Notes: a model not told the origin generated them from the sequence alone. A stretch of 64,000 bases of DNA from Tautonia marina (GCF_009177065.1 NZ_WEZF01000017.1:62001-126000), one strand, 5' to 3'. Positions 38,179 to 43,723 are shown, counted from the stretch's first letter. Translations and numbers: made by a program.

Positions 38179-41100
38179 TCACTCGGCCGGCTTGGGGTCC
38201 TCGGTGGCGTCCGAGGGAGGGGTGGGCGGCGCCCCCTGATCGGGTGACGCGCTCGATGACTCGCCCTGAGGCGGTGACGAGGGGTTGGGCTGGGCCTCTC
38301 CCCCCTGCTCCGTGGGCTCATCCTCGACTCGGGCCTTCCAGAGTTGAGCGAGCTGACCGAACGAGCGGAGGGGAACGGAGCCCTTGATGGCATCCTGCGA
38401 GAGCGGCTCGGGAGGAGGAGCCGGCTTGCGAGGAGTGGTCGGACGAGGGGGGGGCGGGCCTCCTTGATCGGATCGACCGCCACCGGGGCCACCGCGTCCG
38501 CCTCCGGAGCCGCCCCGACCGAATCGGCCGCCACCTCCACCTGGTCCACCCCGACCACCGGGGCCACCGCGACCGCGCTGGCCTTGCTGGGCTCGCATGG
38601 GAGGGCCAGGAACACGGCCGGAGCCGGGACGCCGTTCGCCACCGGTATCGGCGGGGGGAGTAGCTCCCTCGGGAGCCGCCCCCTGGCCTTCGTGAGAACG
38701 TCCGGGACCTCGACCACGGCCGCGACCGCGAGGGGGGCGGCCTTCGCCCTCGGCACCGTCGCCGTGGCCACGGCCTTTCGGGCGTTCGGTGCCGGGAGGA
38801 ACCATTGTGAGCGAGACCTTCTTGCGGTCCTGGTCGACGCTGAGCACCCAGACGGTGACCACGTCGCCCACGCTCACCACGTCGTGCGGGCTCTTGACGT
38901 AGCGGTTCGCAAGCTGACTGATATGAACGAGGCCGGAGTCCTTGAGGCCGATGTCCACGAAGGCGCCGAAGTCGACGACATTCAGGACAGTTCCGCGGAG
39001 CTCCATGCCGGGCTGGAGATCTTCGAGCTTCAGGAAGCCCTTCTTGAAGACGGGCTTGGGCAGGTCTTCACGAGGGTCGCGACCGGGGCGGGCGAGGGCC
39101 TCAAGGATGTCGACAAGCGTGGGCTCGCCGAGTTCGAGTTCCTGCGCGAGGGCGGCGAGTTCCTCGGGCTTGTCCTTCAGTTCGAGCAACTGAGCCTGGA
39201 GGGCGGCGAGCCGTTCCTTGTCGAGCAAGGCGGAGAGCTCGAAGCCGAGGCGGGCTAGCAGTTTCTCGGCGGCCGGATAGCTTTCGGGGTGGACCCAGGT
39301 ACGGTCGAGCGGGTGTTCCCCTTCGAGAATCTTGAGGAAGCCAGCGGCCTGGGTGAAGGTGGCGTCGCCGATCCCTTCGACCTGCAGGATCTGATCTCGG
39401 CGAGCAAACGGCCCGTGCTGGCTCCGGTATTCGACGAGCCGGCGAGCGGTCAGCGAATTCAGACCGGAGACGTGCCGCAACAAGGGAATGCTGGCGGAGT
39501 TGAGATCGACACCGACGTAGTTGACGCAGCTCTCGATGACTGATTCGAGCGATTCCTTGAGCTGCTTGGTGCCCACATCGTGCTGATAGAGTCCGACGCC
39601 GATATTCTGAGGCTCGATCTTGACCAGTTCGGCCAGGGGGTCCTGGAGCCGCCGGCCGATGGAGACGGTGCCTCGGGTGGTGGCGTCGTAGTTCGGAAAC
39701 TCTTCCTTGCCCACGGGGCTGGCCGAGTAAACGCTGGCACCAGCCTCGTTGACGATGACATAAGAGAGGCGGGCGAGGATCGGGTCGGCCGGGTGGGGCA
39801 TCGGCGGAGGGGGCGGCCCCTTGGGCTTGGGCCGCTGGTCGCGGTCGCGCTGCTTCTTGCCGGAGGGTTGCTGCCCCTTGGGCTTGCCGGTCATGCCGAC
39901 GGGGGGCTTGGTCAGATCGACCACGGCCGAGGCAGCGGCCCCTTCGGCGGCCTGGCCTTCGGTCGCCTCGGCGGAGGGAGCCGCAGATGCATCGGGAGCT
40001 TCGGAGGGGAGCGGAGCCGCTTCGATCTCACCGCCGCCGAGTTCGGCGTGGGCGACCTCGGCCTCGGGTTGGGGAACGTGATCGAGTGCCGGTTCGGTCG
40101 GTGACGTGTCGGCAACGGGAGTTGCGGTCGTCTCAGGCTCAGCGGAGGGTTCCGTGGGAGCACCGGCAGGAGCGTCGGTCAGTGCTCCGGCATCGCTGGG
40201 GCCTTGGCCTTCGATCGAGGAAGTGGTGCTTTGAGCCTCGGTGGAAGCAGGAGCGAAATCATCAGTTCCGGCAGCCGGGGAATCGGTGCCGGCGAAACCA
40301 GAGAAGGACTGCGAGGCTTCGGGGCCCTCTGCGGGAGGGACGCGATCGTTGACCGCCTGGGCGGCCTGTTCGGCGTGATGCTCGGGGGAGTGGGAGTCCC
40401 CTTCGGCCTGAGCCGGAGGCACGGCATCGGGCTGGGGTTCGTCGTCGGTCGGAGCACCACCACGGATCGGGGGGAGGGCTTCGGCGGTTGAGTCTCCGGA
40501 CTGGGGCTCGGAGTTGCCACTCGTGTTCGATCCATCGGCCAGGGTCGCCTCAGCGGAGAGAGGGGCCGGAGGATTACCGTCGGCCGGAGCGGAGGTGGTG
40601 GTGTCGGACTCGGAAGACGAAGCCTCCGAAACCGAGGGGTGCGGAAGCTCGGGAGCAGGACCGGGGGACGTGGGCTGGGGGCTTTCGGGAACCTCACCGG
40701 CGATCGGCGCGGCAGGGCGCTCCTCGGCCGGCAGGTCCGAAGCGGCGGTCGGTGAAGACTCTGCCTCGGCAGTGGGAGCGGCTTCGGTATCGGTGCCAGA
40801 GGCCGAGGGGGTGGCTTCGGGGTTCGCCGCACCTTGCTCGACGAGGCCCGAACCGAAGGTTTCGGGGGCCTGGAGCGGGGGAAGGTCCTGGACGTCAGGC
40901 GGCGGGGGGATGTATTCCTCGCCTCGCAGGGCCATCTCGTGGAATCGGGTTCCCTCTTCGAGCACCTCGACGATCAGTTCCTCGGTTTCTCGGCTGGCGG
41001 TGCCGTTGCCGATGGCGATGACCTCGACCTGGTGGCGGGCGACGAGATCCTTGAGGTAGCGCTTGCCTTCGGCCCGACGATGAGCGGGCATGAGGAAGAT

Positions 41101-42153
41101 GACCCCGTGCTCCTTGACGGTGCCCAGCGGGTCGAGCACGACGACCTTGCATCCGGTTCGGAAGCCGGGGTCGAGAGCCAGGACCGTCTGCTTGGGAATG
41201 GGCGGTTGGAGCAAGAGGCTGCGCAGGTTGCGGGCAAAGACCTCGACGGCATGCTGCTCGGCCCGTTCGGTCAATTCGCGGCGCACTTCCCGTTCGAGGC
41301 TGGGCATGAGCAGGCGATCGAGGGCGTCGATCGCAGCGTTGGTGAAGGCCTCGGACTGGGGGTGATCTTCGAGCGGGAGCTGGGCGCGGATGGTCCGTTC
41401 CAGGTCCTCGCGGGGGACCTCGATCTTGACCTTCAAGGGGCCTTCCTTGTCACCGCGATTGATGGCCAGGACGCGGTGAGGAGGAACCTGCCCGACCGGC
41501 TCGGAGTATTCGAAGTAGTCGGCGTATTTCGTCCCCTGCCCCTCGGGCAGATTGTCGGCCTTGCGGGTCACGACCCGGCCGAGGCGCCAGACGACGCGAC
41601 GGACGGCATCGCGGACGTTGGCAAGTTCACTAATCGACTCGGCCAGGATGTGCCCGACCCCTTCGATGACCTGATCGACGGAATCGACCCCCTTGGAGGG
41701 ATCGACGTAGGCCTCGGCGGCGGCGCGGAGGTCGAGCAGGGTTTCATCACGGTTCCAGATGCGCAGAGCCAGCGGTTCGAGCCCTTTCTCGCGGGCATCG
41801 CCGGCCTTGGTGCGCTTCTTGGGCTTGAAGGGCAGGTAGAGGTCTTCGAGGCGCTGTGGCGTATCGGCGCGCTTGATGGCCTCGGCCAGTTCCTCCGTGA
41901 GACGCCCCTGGGCTTCGATCGAGCGCAGCACGGTCTGCTTGCGTTCGGCCAGTTCCCGGAGTCGCGCGACCCGACGCTGGATCTCGCGAATGGCCGTCTC
42001 CTCCAGGTTCCCGGTTTTTTCTTTCCGGTACCGGGTGATGAAGGGGACGGTGTTGCCCTCGTCGAGCAACTGAACAACACTTTCGACCTGAAGACGCCGG
42101 ATTTGCAGATCTTGTGCAATCCGGCCCAGATCGACGGGAATCGGGGTGTCCAT
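38179..42153 (-). CDS. tex: Tex-family RNA-binding protein with large YqgF insertion and RGG tail
   Basis: A 1324-residue protein; typical Tex is about 770-790 residues. The helical N-terminal domain (RIAQDLQIRRLQVESVVQLL, TVPFITRYRKEKTG) leads into the YqgF nuclease-like fold starting near LALDPGFRTG (325-334; Asp328) and AIGNGTASRETEE. An acidic Pro/Ala/Ser/Glu/Thr-rich segment of about 375 residues (about 412-786) then interrupts the fold, which resumes at VIVNEAGASVYSAS (799-812). Helix-hairpin-helix motifs and an S1 domain (about 1048-1117) follow. The end (about 1125-1228) is rich in RGR/RGG and Gly, then Pro-rich. Tex is a nucleic-acid-binding transcription factor-like protein. GTG at 42165 is an alternative start. 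Confidence 0.9.
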   Translation of the reverse strand: MDTPIPVDLGRIAQDLQIRRLQVESVVQLLDEGNTVPFITRYRKEKTGNLEETAIREIQRRVARLRELAERKQTVLRSIEAQGRLTEELAEAIKRADTPQRLEDLYLPFKPKKRTKAGDAREKGLEPLALRIWNRDETLLDLRAAAEAYVDPSKGVDSVDQVIEGVGHILAESISELANVRDAVRRVVWRLGRVVTRKADNLPEGQGTKYADYFEYSEPVGQVPPHRVLAINRGDKEGPLKVKIEVPREDLERTIRAQLPLEDHPQSEAFTNAAIDALDRLLMPSLEREVRRELTERAEQHAVEVFARNLRSLLLQPPIPKQTVLALDPGFRTGCKVVVLDPLGTVKEHGVIFLMPAHRRAEGKRYLKDLVARHQVEVIAIGNGTASRETEELIVEVLEEGTRFHEMALRGEEYIPPPPDVQDLPPLQAPETFGSGLVEQGAANPEATPSASGTDTEAAPTAEAESSPTAASDLPAEERPAAPIAGEVPESPQPTSPGPAPELPHPSVSEASSSESDTTTSAPADGNPPAPLSAEATLADGSNTSGNSEPQSGDSTAEALPPIRGGAPTDDEPQPDAVPPAQAEGDSHSPEHHAEQAAQAVNDRVPPAEGPEASQSFSGFAGTDSPAAGTDDFAPASTEAQSTTSSIEGQGPSDAGALTDAPAGAPTEPSAEPETTATPVADTSPTEPALDHVPQPEAEVAHAELGGGEIEAAPLPSEAPDASAAPSAEATEGQAAEGAAASAVVDLTKPPVGMTGKPKGQQPSGKKQRDRDQRPKPKGPPPPPMPHPADPILARLSYVIVNEAGASVYSASPVGKEEFPNYDATTRGTVSIGRRLQDPLAELVKIEPQNIGVGLYQHDVGTKQLKESLESVIESCVNYVGVDLNSASIPLLRHVSGLNSLTARRLVEYRSQHGPFARRDQILQVEGIGDATFTQAAGFLKILEGEHPLDRTWVHPESYPAAEKLLARLGFELSALLDKERLAALQAQLLELKDKPEELAALAQELELGEPTLVDILEALARPGRDPREDLPKPVFKKGFLKLEDLQPGMELRGTVLNVVDFGAFVDIGLKDSGLVHISQLANRYVKSPHDVVSVGDVVTVWVLSVDQDRKKVSLTMVPPGTERPKGRGHGDGAEGEGRPPRGRGRGRGPGRSHEGQGAAPEGATPPADTGGERRPGSGRVPGPPMRAQQGQRGRGGPGGRGGPGGGGGRFGRGGSGGGRGGPGGGRSDQGGPPPPRPTTPRKPAPPPEPLSQDAIKGSVPLRSFGQLAQLWKARVEDEPTEQGGEAQPNPSSPPQGESSSASPDQGAPPTPPSDATEDPKPAE

Positions 42154-42387
42154 GGGAGCGACCACCTGGCAAGCACGCGGGGACGGCGGAGACCCTCGGG
42201 CGCGGGGCCGATCGACAGGGTCGGGGCGCCCGGGTCGAACATGAACATGCGGCGCGCAGCCTGGCCTGTGCGCGGCGATGGAGGCTGCACCTTAGAGGAA
42301 GAGACTGTCCGATGTCAAGCGCCACAGGCGGTTTCCGCCCATTTACGTCTTCAGCGGATCATGGCTCCAGTTCATGAGCGAATGACA

Positions 42388-42714
42388 CTAGCGTGCCCCG
42401 GTCCCGTCGCCGTCGGGGCGTTGACGGAGATGACGTTTGATGTCACCGACCACGTTTCGCATGTGATTGAGGTCGTTTTCATCGGTTTCACGTGCGTTTT
42501 GTCGAAGCACGATCACGATTTTCCGGCCGGATTCGTGGTCGATGGATTCGGAAACCCCAGGTCGACGGCGACCGGAGGACCGGGATTCGTCGGTGTGCAG
42601 CCACCGTTCGAGTTGCGGAGCGGTCAGATTCACGTGCTCCTTGAAGCGTTCGATCGTTTCCGCTCGACCTATGCTCCGGTGGTGTTCGGCTCGCGCCCCG
42701 ATCGGGTTGGCCAA
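42388..42714 (-). CDS. DUF3140 family protein
   Basis: A 108-residue basic protein. From about residue 21 it matches the DUF3140 pattern: IERFKEHVNLTAPQLERWL, TDESRSSG, ESIDHESGRKIVIVL and NHMRNVVGDIKRHLRQRP. The function of DUF3140 is unknown. The only suitable start in frame is TTG at 42714, with GAGGG about 10 nt upstream, which makes this gene easy to miss. It lies between the stress-type SDR and tex, all leftward. Confidence 0.75.
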   Translation of the reverse strand: MANPIGARAEHHRSIGRAETIERFKEHVNLTAPQLERWLHTDESRSSGRRRPGVSESIDHESGRKIVIVLRQNARETDENDLNHMRNVVGDIKRHLRQRPDGDGTGAR

Positions 42715-42841
42715 TGGGGTCGTCCCTCAACAGGCAGGCGAAATGAGGACGACACCAACGGATTCTCAGGGCATGCCGACCGCCCCCCCATCAAGGCAAA
42801 CCGGGCCGGACGGCAGGCACACCCCCGGAGCGGCAAGCCGA

Positions 42842-43723
42842 TTACCCGGCCTGAGTGACGCCACCGTAAAGCGAAAGGACTTCGCCGGTGACGTAGCTGC
42901 TATCGGGGTTCGAGGCGAAGTAGACGAAGGCGGGAGCCATTTCCTCGGGTTGGCCGGGGCGTCCCATCGGCACATTGCCGCCGTATTCGGCCATCTCGTC
43001 GGCCCCGCGAGCCGAGGCATTCAAGGGGGTCCAGACAGGACCGGGGGCAACGCAGTTCACACGGATCTGCCGGTCAACGAGCATCTGAGCCAGCGCCTTG
43101 GTGAAGGCGTGGATGGCGGCCTTGCTGGCCGAGTAGTCGAGAATCCCCTTGGAACCTTGCATGCCGGCAACCGATCCCGTGTTGATGATCGCCGCGCCTG
43201 GTTTGAGGTGCGACAAGGCAGCCCGGACCATATAAAAGAAGGAATAGACGTTGGTTCGGAAAACCTTGTCGAGATCGTCGTCGGTAATCTCGTCGAACGT
43301 CGCCCGTTTGGGCATATAGGCAGCGTTATTGACGAGGATGTCGAGCTTGCCAAACGCTCGGACGGTTTGCTCGACGGCATCCTTGCAGAATGACGAGTCT
43401 TTCAGATCACCGGGGATGCAGAGGCAGCGCCGACCGATTTGCTCGACGTGCTGACGGACATGGTCGGCGTCTCGTTGTTCCTCGGGAAGGTAGACGATCG
43501 CCACATCAGTCCCTTCTTTTGCGAAGAGGATGGCCACTGCCGCTCCGATGCCGGAATCGCCGCCGGTAATGAGGGCGACCTGATCGGTCAGCTTTCCCGC
43601 GGCTTTGTACTGCTCTGCCGAGTGCCTGGGCCGAGGGTTCATCTCGGCATCAAGTCCGGGAGGACTCTGGCTCTGAGGCGCAAAGGGCGGGGCTGGTTCC
43701 TTCAAGGGTGTCTTGGATGCCAT
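42842..43723 (-). CDS. SDR-family oxidoreductase (general stress protein 39/YhdF-like)
   Basis: A 293-residue short-chain dehydrogenase with a Pro-rich N-terminal arm of about 45 residues (EMNPRPRHSAEQYKAAGKLTD), typical of the stress-associated YhdF/GsiB-neighbour group. The cofactor motif is TGGDSGIG (53-60), NNAA follows at 132-135, and the catalytic set is Ser184, Tyr197 and Lys201 (YSASK). The end SSYVTGEVLSLYGG is typical. Substrate unknown. The ATG at 43723 is preferred; upstream codons lack coding character. The DUF3140 gene follows it. Confidence 0.9.
   Translation of the reverse strand: MASKTPLKEPAPPFAPQSQSPPGLDAEMNPRPRHSAEQYKAAGKLTDQVALITGGDSGIGAAVAILFAKEGTDVAIVYLPEEQRDADHVRQHVEQIGRRCLCIPGDLKDSSFCKDAVEQTVRAFGKLDILVNNAAYMPKRATFDEITDDDLDKVFRTNVYSFFYMVRAALSHLKPGAAIINTGSVAGMQGSKGILDYSASKAAIHAFTKALAQMLVDRQIRVNCVAPGPVWTPLNASARGADEMAEYGGNVPMGRPGQPEEMAPAFVYFASNPDSSYVTGEVLSLYGGVTQAG

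Follow-up and report, generated by a model that had tools for sequence, protein, structure and literature searches.

Tex is the bacterial relative of the Spt6 core, widespread in bacteria and concerned with gene expression in a poorly understood role. The window, a stretch of 64,000 nucleotides, carries a tex gene encoding 1324 amino acids, which raises the question of what fills a Tex chain of this length and what the unusual parts may do. The gene (38179..42153, minus strand) was assigned on the basis of its open reading frame, Pfam and phmmer. Its frame runs uninterrupted from the ATG at 42153 to the stop codon at 38179–38181, and no second Tex copy was found in the source genome. A GTG at 42165, four codons before the ATG, likewise opens the frame; the ATG was preferred, as the consensus of 44 orthologues begins there (MDxPIxVDLGRIAQ). 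Residue numbers are counted from the ATG, while tool output for window:38182-42165 is counted from the GTG and runs ~4 higher. The source genome falls within the Isosphaeraceae, its nearest named match being Tautonia sociabilis (72% in the best segment), and three further genomes were placed in the same genus. A literature search on Tex in planctomycetes returned no paper. Antisense to tex lies a 674-aa open frame (40834-42858, plus strand), probably an effect of the high GC content and codon bias.

Domains of the protein and the insert in the YqgF fold

The domains appear in the order Tex_N, central region, YqgF-like, HHH and S1, all with Pfam matches above the cut-off and all on the minus strand. 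Tex_N (PF09371, 1.4e-27) covers residues 11–80 (41914..42123), and the central region (PF22706, 1.3e-31) residues 142–306 (41236..41730). HHH_3 (PF12836; residues 877–940, 39334..39525), HHH_9 (PF17674; residues 947–1028, 39070..39315) and the S1 RNA-binding domain (PF00575, 1.5e-18; residues 1047–1116, 38806..39015) follow the YqgF-like region. From the presence of the S1 and HHH domains, nucleic-acid binding and an effect on transcription are predicted.

Pfam matched Tex_YqgF in two stretches, on either side of an insert. The first part (PF16921; residues 323–401, 40951..41187) comprises β1-β2-β3-α1-β4-α2 according to the predicted secondary structure. The second part (residues 793–840, 39634..39777), defined by Pfam, phmmer and AlphaFold2, runs from strand β5, VIVNEAGASVYSAS, onwards. 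A phmmer comparison with Pseudomonas aeruginosa Tex yielded two blocks, 21–403 and 799–1155 of the query (GTG numbering), which almost adjoin each other in the PDB chain (..408 and 414..). The insert therefore measures ~390 residues (402–792) and is located between helix α2 and strand β5. The first-pass annotation had thus placed the insertion correctly, inside the YqgF fold, and its estimate of 375 residues was slightly short.

AlphaFold2 was run on the window's own Tex with an input alignment of 43 sequences. The YqgF strands and helices flanking the insert reached pLDDT values of ~85–96, and residues 421–771 remained almost entirely below 50 (mostly 29–42). Charge–hydropathy analysis agreed, classing the insert and the tail as disordered and both core parts as folded; the disorder assigned to the insertion at first reading was thereby confirmed. 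All strands and helices of the YqgF-like fold were predicted, in order, around the ~390-residue split, and the fold looks intact in the model apart from the insert.

The model shows the same structural elements as the Tex fold. For a shorter homologue (L051, 1072 aa), a full-length model matched the solved Tex structures, with Z ~30 over 630–650 residues against 3bzk and 3bzc. P. aeruginosa Tex (PA5201; PDB 3bzc, 3bzk, 2oce), ~42% identical to the L051 model, has all folded domains in common with the window Tex and in the same order. Unlike the window Tex, it has no insert between α2 and β5, and its chain of 780–785 residues (728–730 in the crystal models) leaves room for only a short tail. 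Eukaryotic elongation factor Spt6 has the same core fold as the L051 model (Z mostly ~20–23), but the identity is only ~20% and the window Tex has no SH2 match in Pfam.

The insert is made up of three segments. The entry segment (residues 402–420, 40894..40950, minus strand) lengthens α2 with pLDDT values of 79–92 and contains a conserved xEGTxF motif. It leads into the acidic disordered body (residues 421–735, 39949..40893, minus strand), rich in Ala, Pro, Ser, Glu, Thr and Asp, which was delimited by pLDDT, charge count and codon-position shuffles. The exit segment (residues 736–792, 39778..39948, minus strand), recognized by conservation, charge and dN/dS, is first basic and then proline-rich.

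Conservation, selection and charge of the insert

Relatives were searched with the C-terminal half of Tex as the query. A Tex match was obtained in 44 of the 45 family genomes, some of them contig-end fragments, and the remaining genome (G023) gave only S1-type matches. The site could be read through in 31 Isosphaeraceae Tex sequences, and in all of them 173–420 residues separated the YqgF halves. Every length difference within the genus amounted to whole codons. The insert body evolves fast there, with dN/dS values of 0.22–0.48 compared with 0.02–0.10 for the core, and identities of 45–75% compared with 90–98%. The in-frame indels and the dN/dS below 1 imply that the insert evolves like a translated segment that is to some degree constrained. 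A frameshift, a misassembly or a wrong gene model, the first of the two refutations named by the first-pass annotation, was ruled out by 31 independent species assemblies with the same architecture; the in-frame indels and dN/dS values further contradict it, and its probability is negligible. The second, absence of the insertion in close relatives, did not apply either, the insert being present in every relative read.

The borders of the insert are conserved. Among the Isosphaeraceae, the E, G and F positions of the entry motif are 97–100% conserved. In the exit segment, the P-P, P, H, A and D positions are kept at 94–100%, with P-H-x-A-D directly before β5. This segment is net positive in 30 of the 31 sequences and has dN/dS values of 0.02–0.55; the basic-exit pattern was observed in the Isosphaeraceae only.

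Residues 426–735 of the window Tex include 55 Asp/Glu and 3 Lys/Arg, and aromatic residues are scarce in the insert (6 F/W/Y in 392). To separate this charge from base composition, the bases of the family's insert bodies were shuffled within each codon position. The insert bodies are more acidic than this composition predicts (median z = –4.2), with a mean net charge of –37 observed against –20 expected, and a Lys+Arg content of 1.1% against 4.4%. The same procedure showed that the basicity of the tail is no greater than its own base composition predicts. The net negative charge of the insert is kept in 31 of 31 Isosphaeraceae despite the divergence of the sequence.

These features were compared with 464 kb of the same genome, a sample of ~1/15 of the genome with ~354 gene-like ORFs, in which genes were called only roughly and several of the next-ranked ORFs appear to be spurious. 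The Tex insert contains the longest internal low-complexity run of the sample (307 aa, the second being 116 aa), and the Tex tail is the longest terminal one. This gives a strong hint, from a sample and not a census, that the insert and the tail are not simply typical of the proteome. A proteome-wide habit as the sole cause of the insert was rejected, Tex being an outlier in the 464-kb sample. Two other proteins of the source genome also carry charged segments: Rho (L138:4872-6836, minus strand) has a charged low-complexity N-terminal region before its folded part, and ribosomal protein S1 (L130:11202-13526, minus strand) has an acidic C-terminal tail in which AESTEPEA-like units recur.

The main rival to a functional reading of the insert is neutral or nearly neutral expansion, in which tolerant surface loops of Tex would, in GC-rich genomes, fill with Ala/Pro-rich sequence, acidity would serve solubility only, and no specific function would be involved. 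The 173–420-residue range of lengths within one family and the body dN/dS of up to 0.48 are in line with such drift. However, the insert has been retained in 31 of 31 Isosphaeraceae, its entry and exit segments are conserved, its acidity exceeds the base-composition prediction, and Tex is an outlier in the genome sample, so loop expansion is not general. We consider this explanation somewhat unlikely.

The tail and its C-terminal motif

After the S1 domain, and thus next to an RNA-binding domain, a basic linker (residues 1119–1245, 38419..38799, minus strand; 23 K/R against 9 D/E) contains the 10 RG and 4 RGG of the tail, which bears out its description as RGR/RGG-rich. The number of RGG ranges from 0 to 4 among the Isosphaeraceae; the motif as such is thus not strictly conserved. 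Outside the class, one further Tex (L146) also has an RGG-rich tail. The claim that known Tex lacks both the insertion and the tail was wrong. Four proteobacterial Tex proteins also end in short basic tails (56, 51, 63 and 55 residues in L015–L018), and the long RG tail is therefore an extension and not a new part. On sequence comparison, only the insert and the length and RG content of the tail are unusual relative to ordinary Tex.

The linker leads to a conserved C-terminal motif, PPPEPLSQDAIKGSVPLRSFGQLAQLWKAR (residues 1246–1275, 38329..38418, minus strand), defined by conservation, dN/dS and its pLDDT in the L051 model. The consensus, PLSKDALAGSVPLRSFGQLKQLWQAR, is well conserved in 30 Isosphaeraceae, with the F, G, Q and L of FGQL at 97–100%, and recognizable forms of the motif (PLRSFGQLKQLW) occur in nearly all tailed Planctomycetia Tex proteins. 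A variable acidic end completes the chain (residues 1276–1324, 38182..38328, minus strand; 11 D/E, 1 K/R). The dN/dS values are 0.07–0.11 for the linker, 0–0.07 for the motif and 0.20–0.82 for the acidic end. No further copies of the motif were found in the source genome.

In the L051 model, the motif has a pLDDT of ~89 after ~100 residues at 34–45, which suggests that it may be docked on the Tex core. Since the tail leads to a conserved motif predicted at this confidence, the RG segment may form a tethered loop instead of ending freely as an RGG tail. In three sequences of family f2 (L078, L085 and L092), Tex stops right behind the S1 domain, so that both the tail and the C-terminal motif are missing. 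The docking surface was sought among core residues freed from conservation in these three tail-less sequences; there were only 2 such positions, fewer than in control trios, and they pointed to no particular surface.

Short conserved segments beside variable disorder would also be expected if the C-terminal motif, or the two segments bordering the insert body, recruited a partner, be it RNA polymerase, the ribosome or some other factor, with the insert body acting as a spacer. The conservation of the motif across the Planctomycetia and the presence of the structural relative Spt6 in Pol II elongation complexes point in the same direction. Nevertheless, the entry and exit segments adjoin the fold and are partly ordered, so their conservation may reflect packing only; the motif is predicted to be ordered within the Tex chain alone, and the basic exit is seen in the Isosphaeraceae only. 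Recruitment of this kind appears quite improbable.

The contrast between a negative insert and a positive tail, proposed at first reading, recurred across the alignment: at site IV, the position of the insert in the window Tex, all 42 inserts carry a net negative charge, and tails are positive in 77 of 81 sequences. Opposite charge blocks within one RNA-binding protein could make Tex a condensate scaffold, in which the acidic loop and the basic RG linker would drive RNA-dependent coacervation, by analogy with Bacteroides Rho. Rho of Bacteroides thetaiotaomicron is a conserved transcription factor whose long disordered segment contains motifs of opposing charge; short charged motifs in this region are required for its condensation (PMC13269538). 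Rho is unrelated to Tex, and its segment is Lys/Glu-rich with a prion-like part and lies near the N-terminus, not inside a fold. The few aromatic residues of the Tex insert speak against a scaffold, and a long polyanion might just as well counteract coacervation driven by RNA. We give this possibility a similarly low probability to that of partner recruitment.

Insert sites across the Planctomycetia and a possible function

The alignment across Planctomycetota that the first-pass annotation had proposed was run on 82 Tex sequences, mostly from Planctomycetia. It showed the insert throughout the Isosphaeraceae and long inserts at four Tex sites in the class, numbered by the GTG count, ~4 higher than the ATG count. 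Sites I (after residue ~206) and II (residue ~261) fall within the Tex central region, site III (residue ~360) is the β3-α1 loop of YqgF, and site IV, between α2 and β5 of YqgF, holds the insert of the window Tex. Among the 71 inserts that reach 35 residues or more, 69 have a net negative charge, and the other two are short with a charge of +1; by site, the acidic fractions are 15/16, 5/6, 7/7 and 42/42 for I to IV. The largest insert seen belongs to a 1661-aa Tex (L097, G089:C8), with ~690 acidic disordered residues at site I and a charge of –91.

On a tree of the Tex core, the sites are distributed by clade. Site IV is used by the Isosphaeraceae and family f3, site III by f4, f8 and two f3 members, and site I by a clade with f7, f9, f10, f16 and termite-gut genomes, while f2, f11 and f15 have no insert at any site. 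Parsimony required 5, 3, 3 and 4 changes for sites I to IV. A single clade of f1 and f3 was compatible with the data (p-AU 0.42), which leaves room for either one origin of site IV or two. The new observation is this occurrence of acidic disordered inserts at four Tex sites by clade across the Planctomycetia. Sites that vary by lineage and families without any insert are also what neutral expansion of tolerant loops would leave behind.

The explanation that we tentatively prefer, at a little under an even chance as a whole, is that this is a genuine Tex orthologue in which the charged loop is a tethered polyanion and the C-terminal motif docks. Anchored at both ends between α2 and β5, the acidic loop would mimic nucleic acid, competing against RNA or DNA for binding to basic surfaces on the S1, HHH and tail regions. 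Such competition would raise selectivity and exchange and limit non-specific binding, in the manner of the acidic C-terminus of Hfq. The motif would dock, either on the core of Tex or on some partner, and this would keep the basic linker close to the folded portion. The selected property would be charge and not position; because relatives carry similar loops at other Tex sites, charge may matter more.

There are precedents for the individual steps. The acidic C-terminal domain of Hfq, likewise an acidic disordered segment in an RNA-binding protein, acts as a nucleic-acid mimic (PMC5606850), although it is a short terminal tip, whereas the Tex insert is a loop of hundreds of residues with both ends anchored. 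In DNA-binding proteins, negatively charged disordered regions autoinhibit and speed target search (PMC10250230). The insert–tail charge contrast and the acidity beyond composition would fit an electrostatic role, such as autoinhibition, and the presence of the insert in 31 of 31 Isosphaeraceae supports the polyanion explanation, as do the core predicted to be intact, the in-frame indels with dN/dS below 1, the acidic inserts at further sites by clade, and the conserved motif predicted to be ordered. Against it, families f2, f11 and f15 manage without an insert and the tail is not basic beyond its composition; the acidity of disordered segments may also in part be a general bias of cytosolic proteins. 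The functional interpretation first given to this protein, an interaction of insert and tail, appears partly supported by the sequence comparisons. It has changed because the tail is a lengthened ordinary feature leading to a conserved motif, and the insert has a basic, proline-rich exit segment of its own. The combination of independent, repeated gain at four sites, a docked basic linker and an electrostatic switch in a bacterial relative of Spt6 seems to us rather unlikely.

If charge regulates binding, Tex would join Bacteroides Rho as a conserved bacterial transcription factor that has gained regulation via disorder; in Tex, the disordered segment would sit within a folded domain and would have arisen repeatedly. 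The Tex proteins of Planctomycetia offer a natural experiment, with species carrying inserts at different sites and species carrying none.

Outside the class, most Tex frames are of ordinary length, with some exceptions. In three Tex-like proteins from other planctomycete classes (L143, L147 and L150), extra segments separate the N-terminal from the central domain or precede YqgF. Two genomes (G116 and G142) have two Tex-like genes each: frames of 894–993 aa with 57–58% identity to the query, and a second gene of ordinary length (723–741 aa) with ~51% identity.
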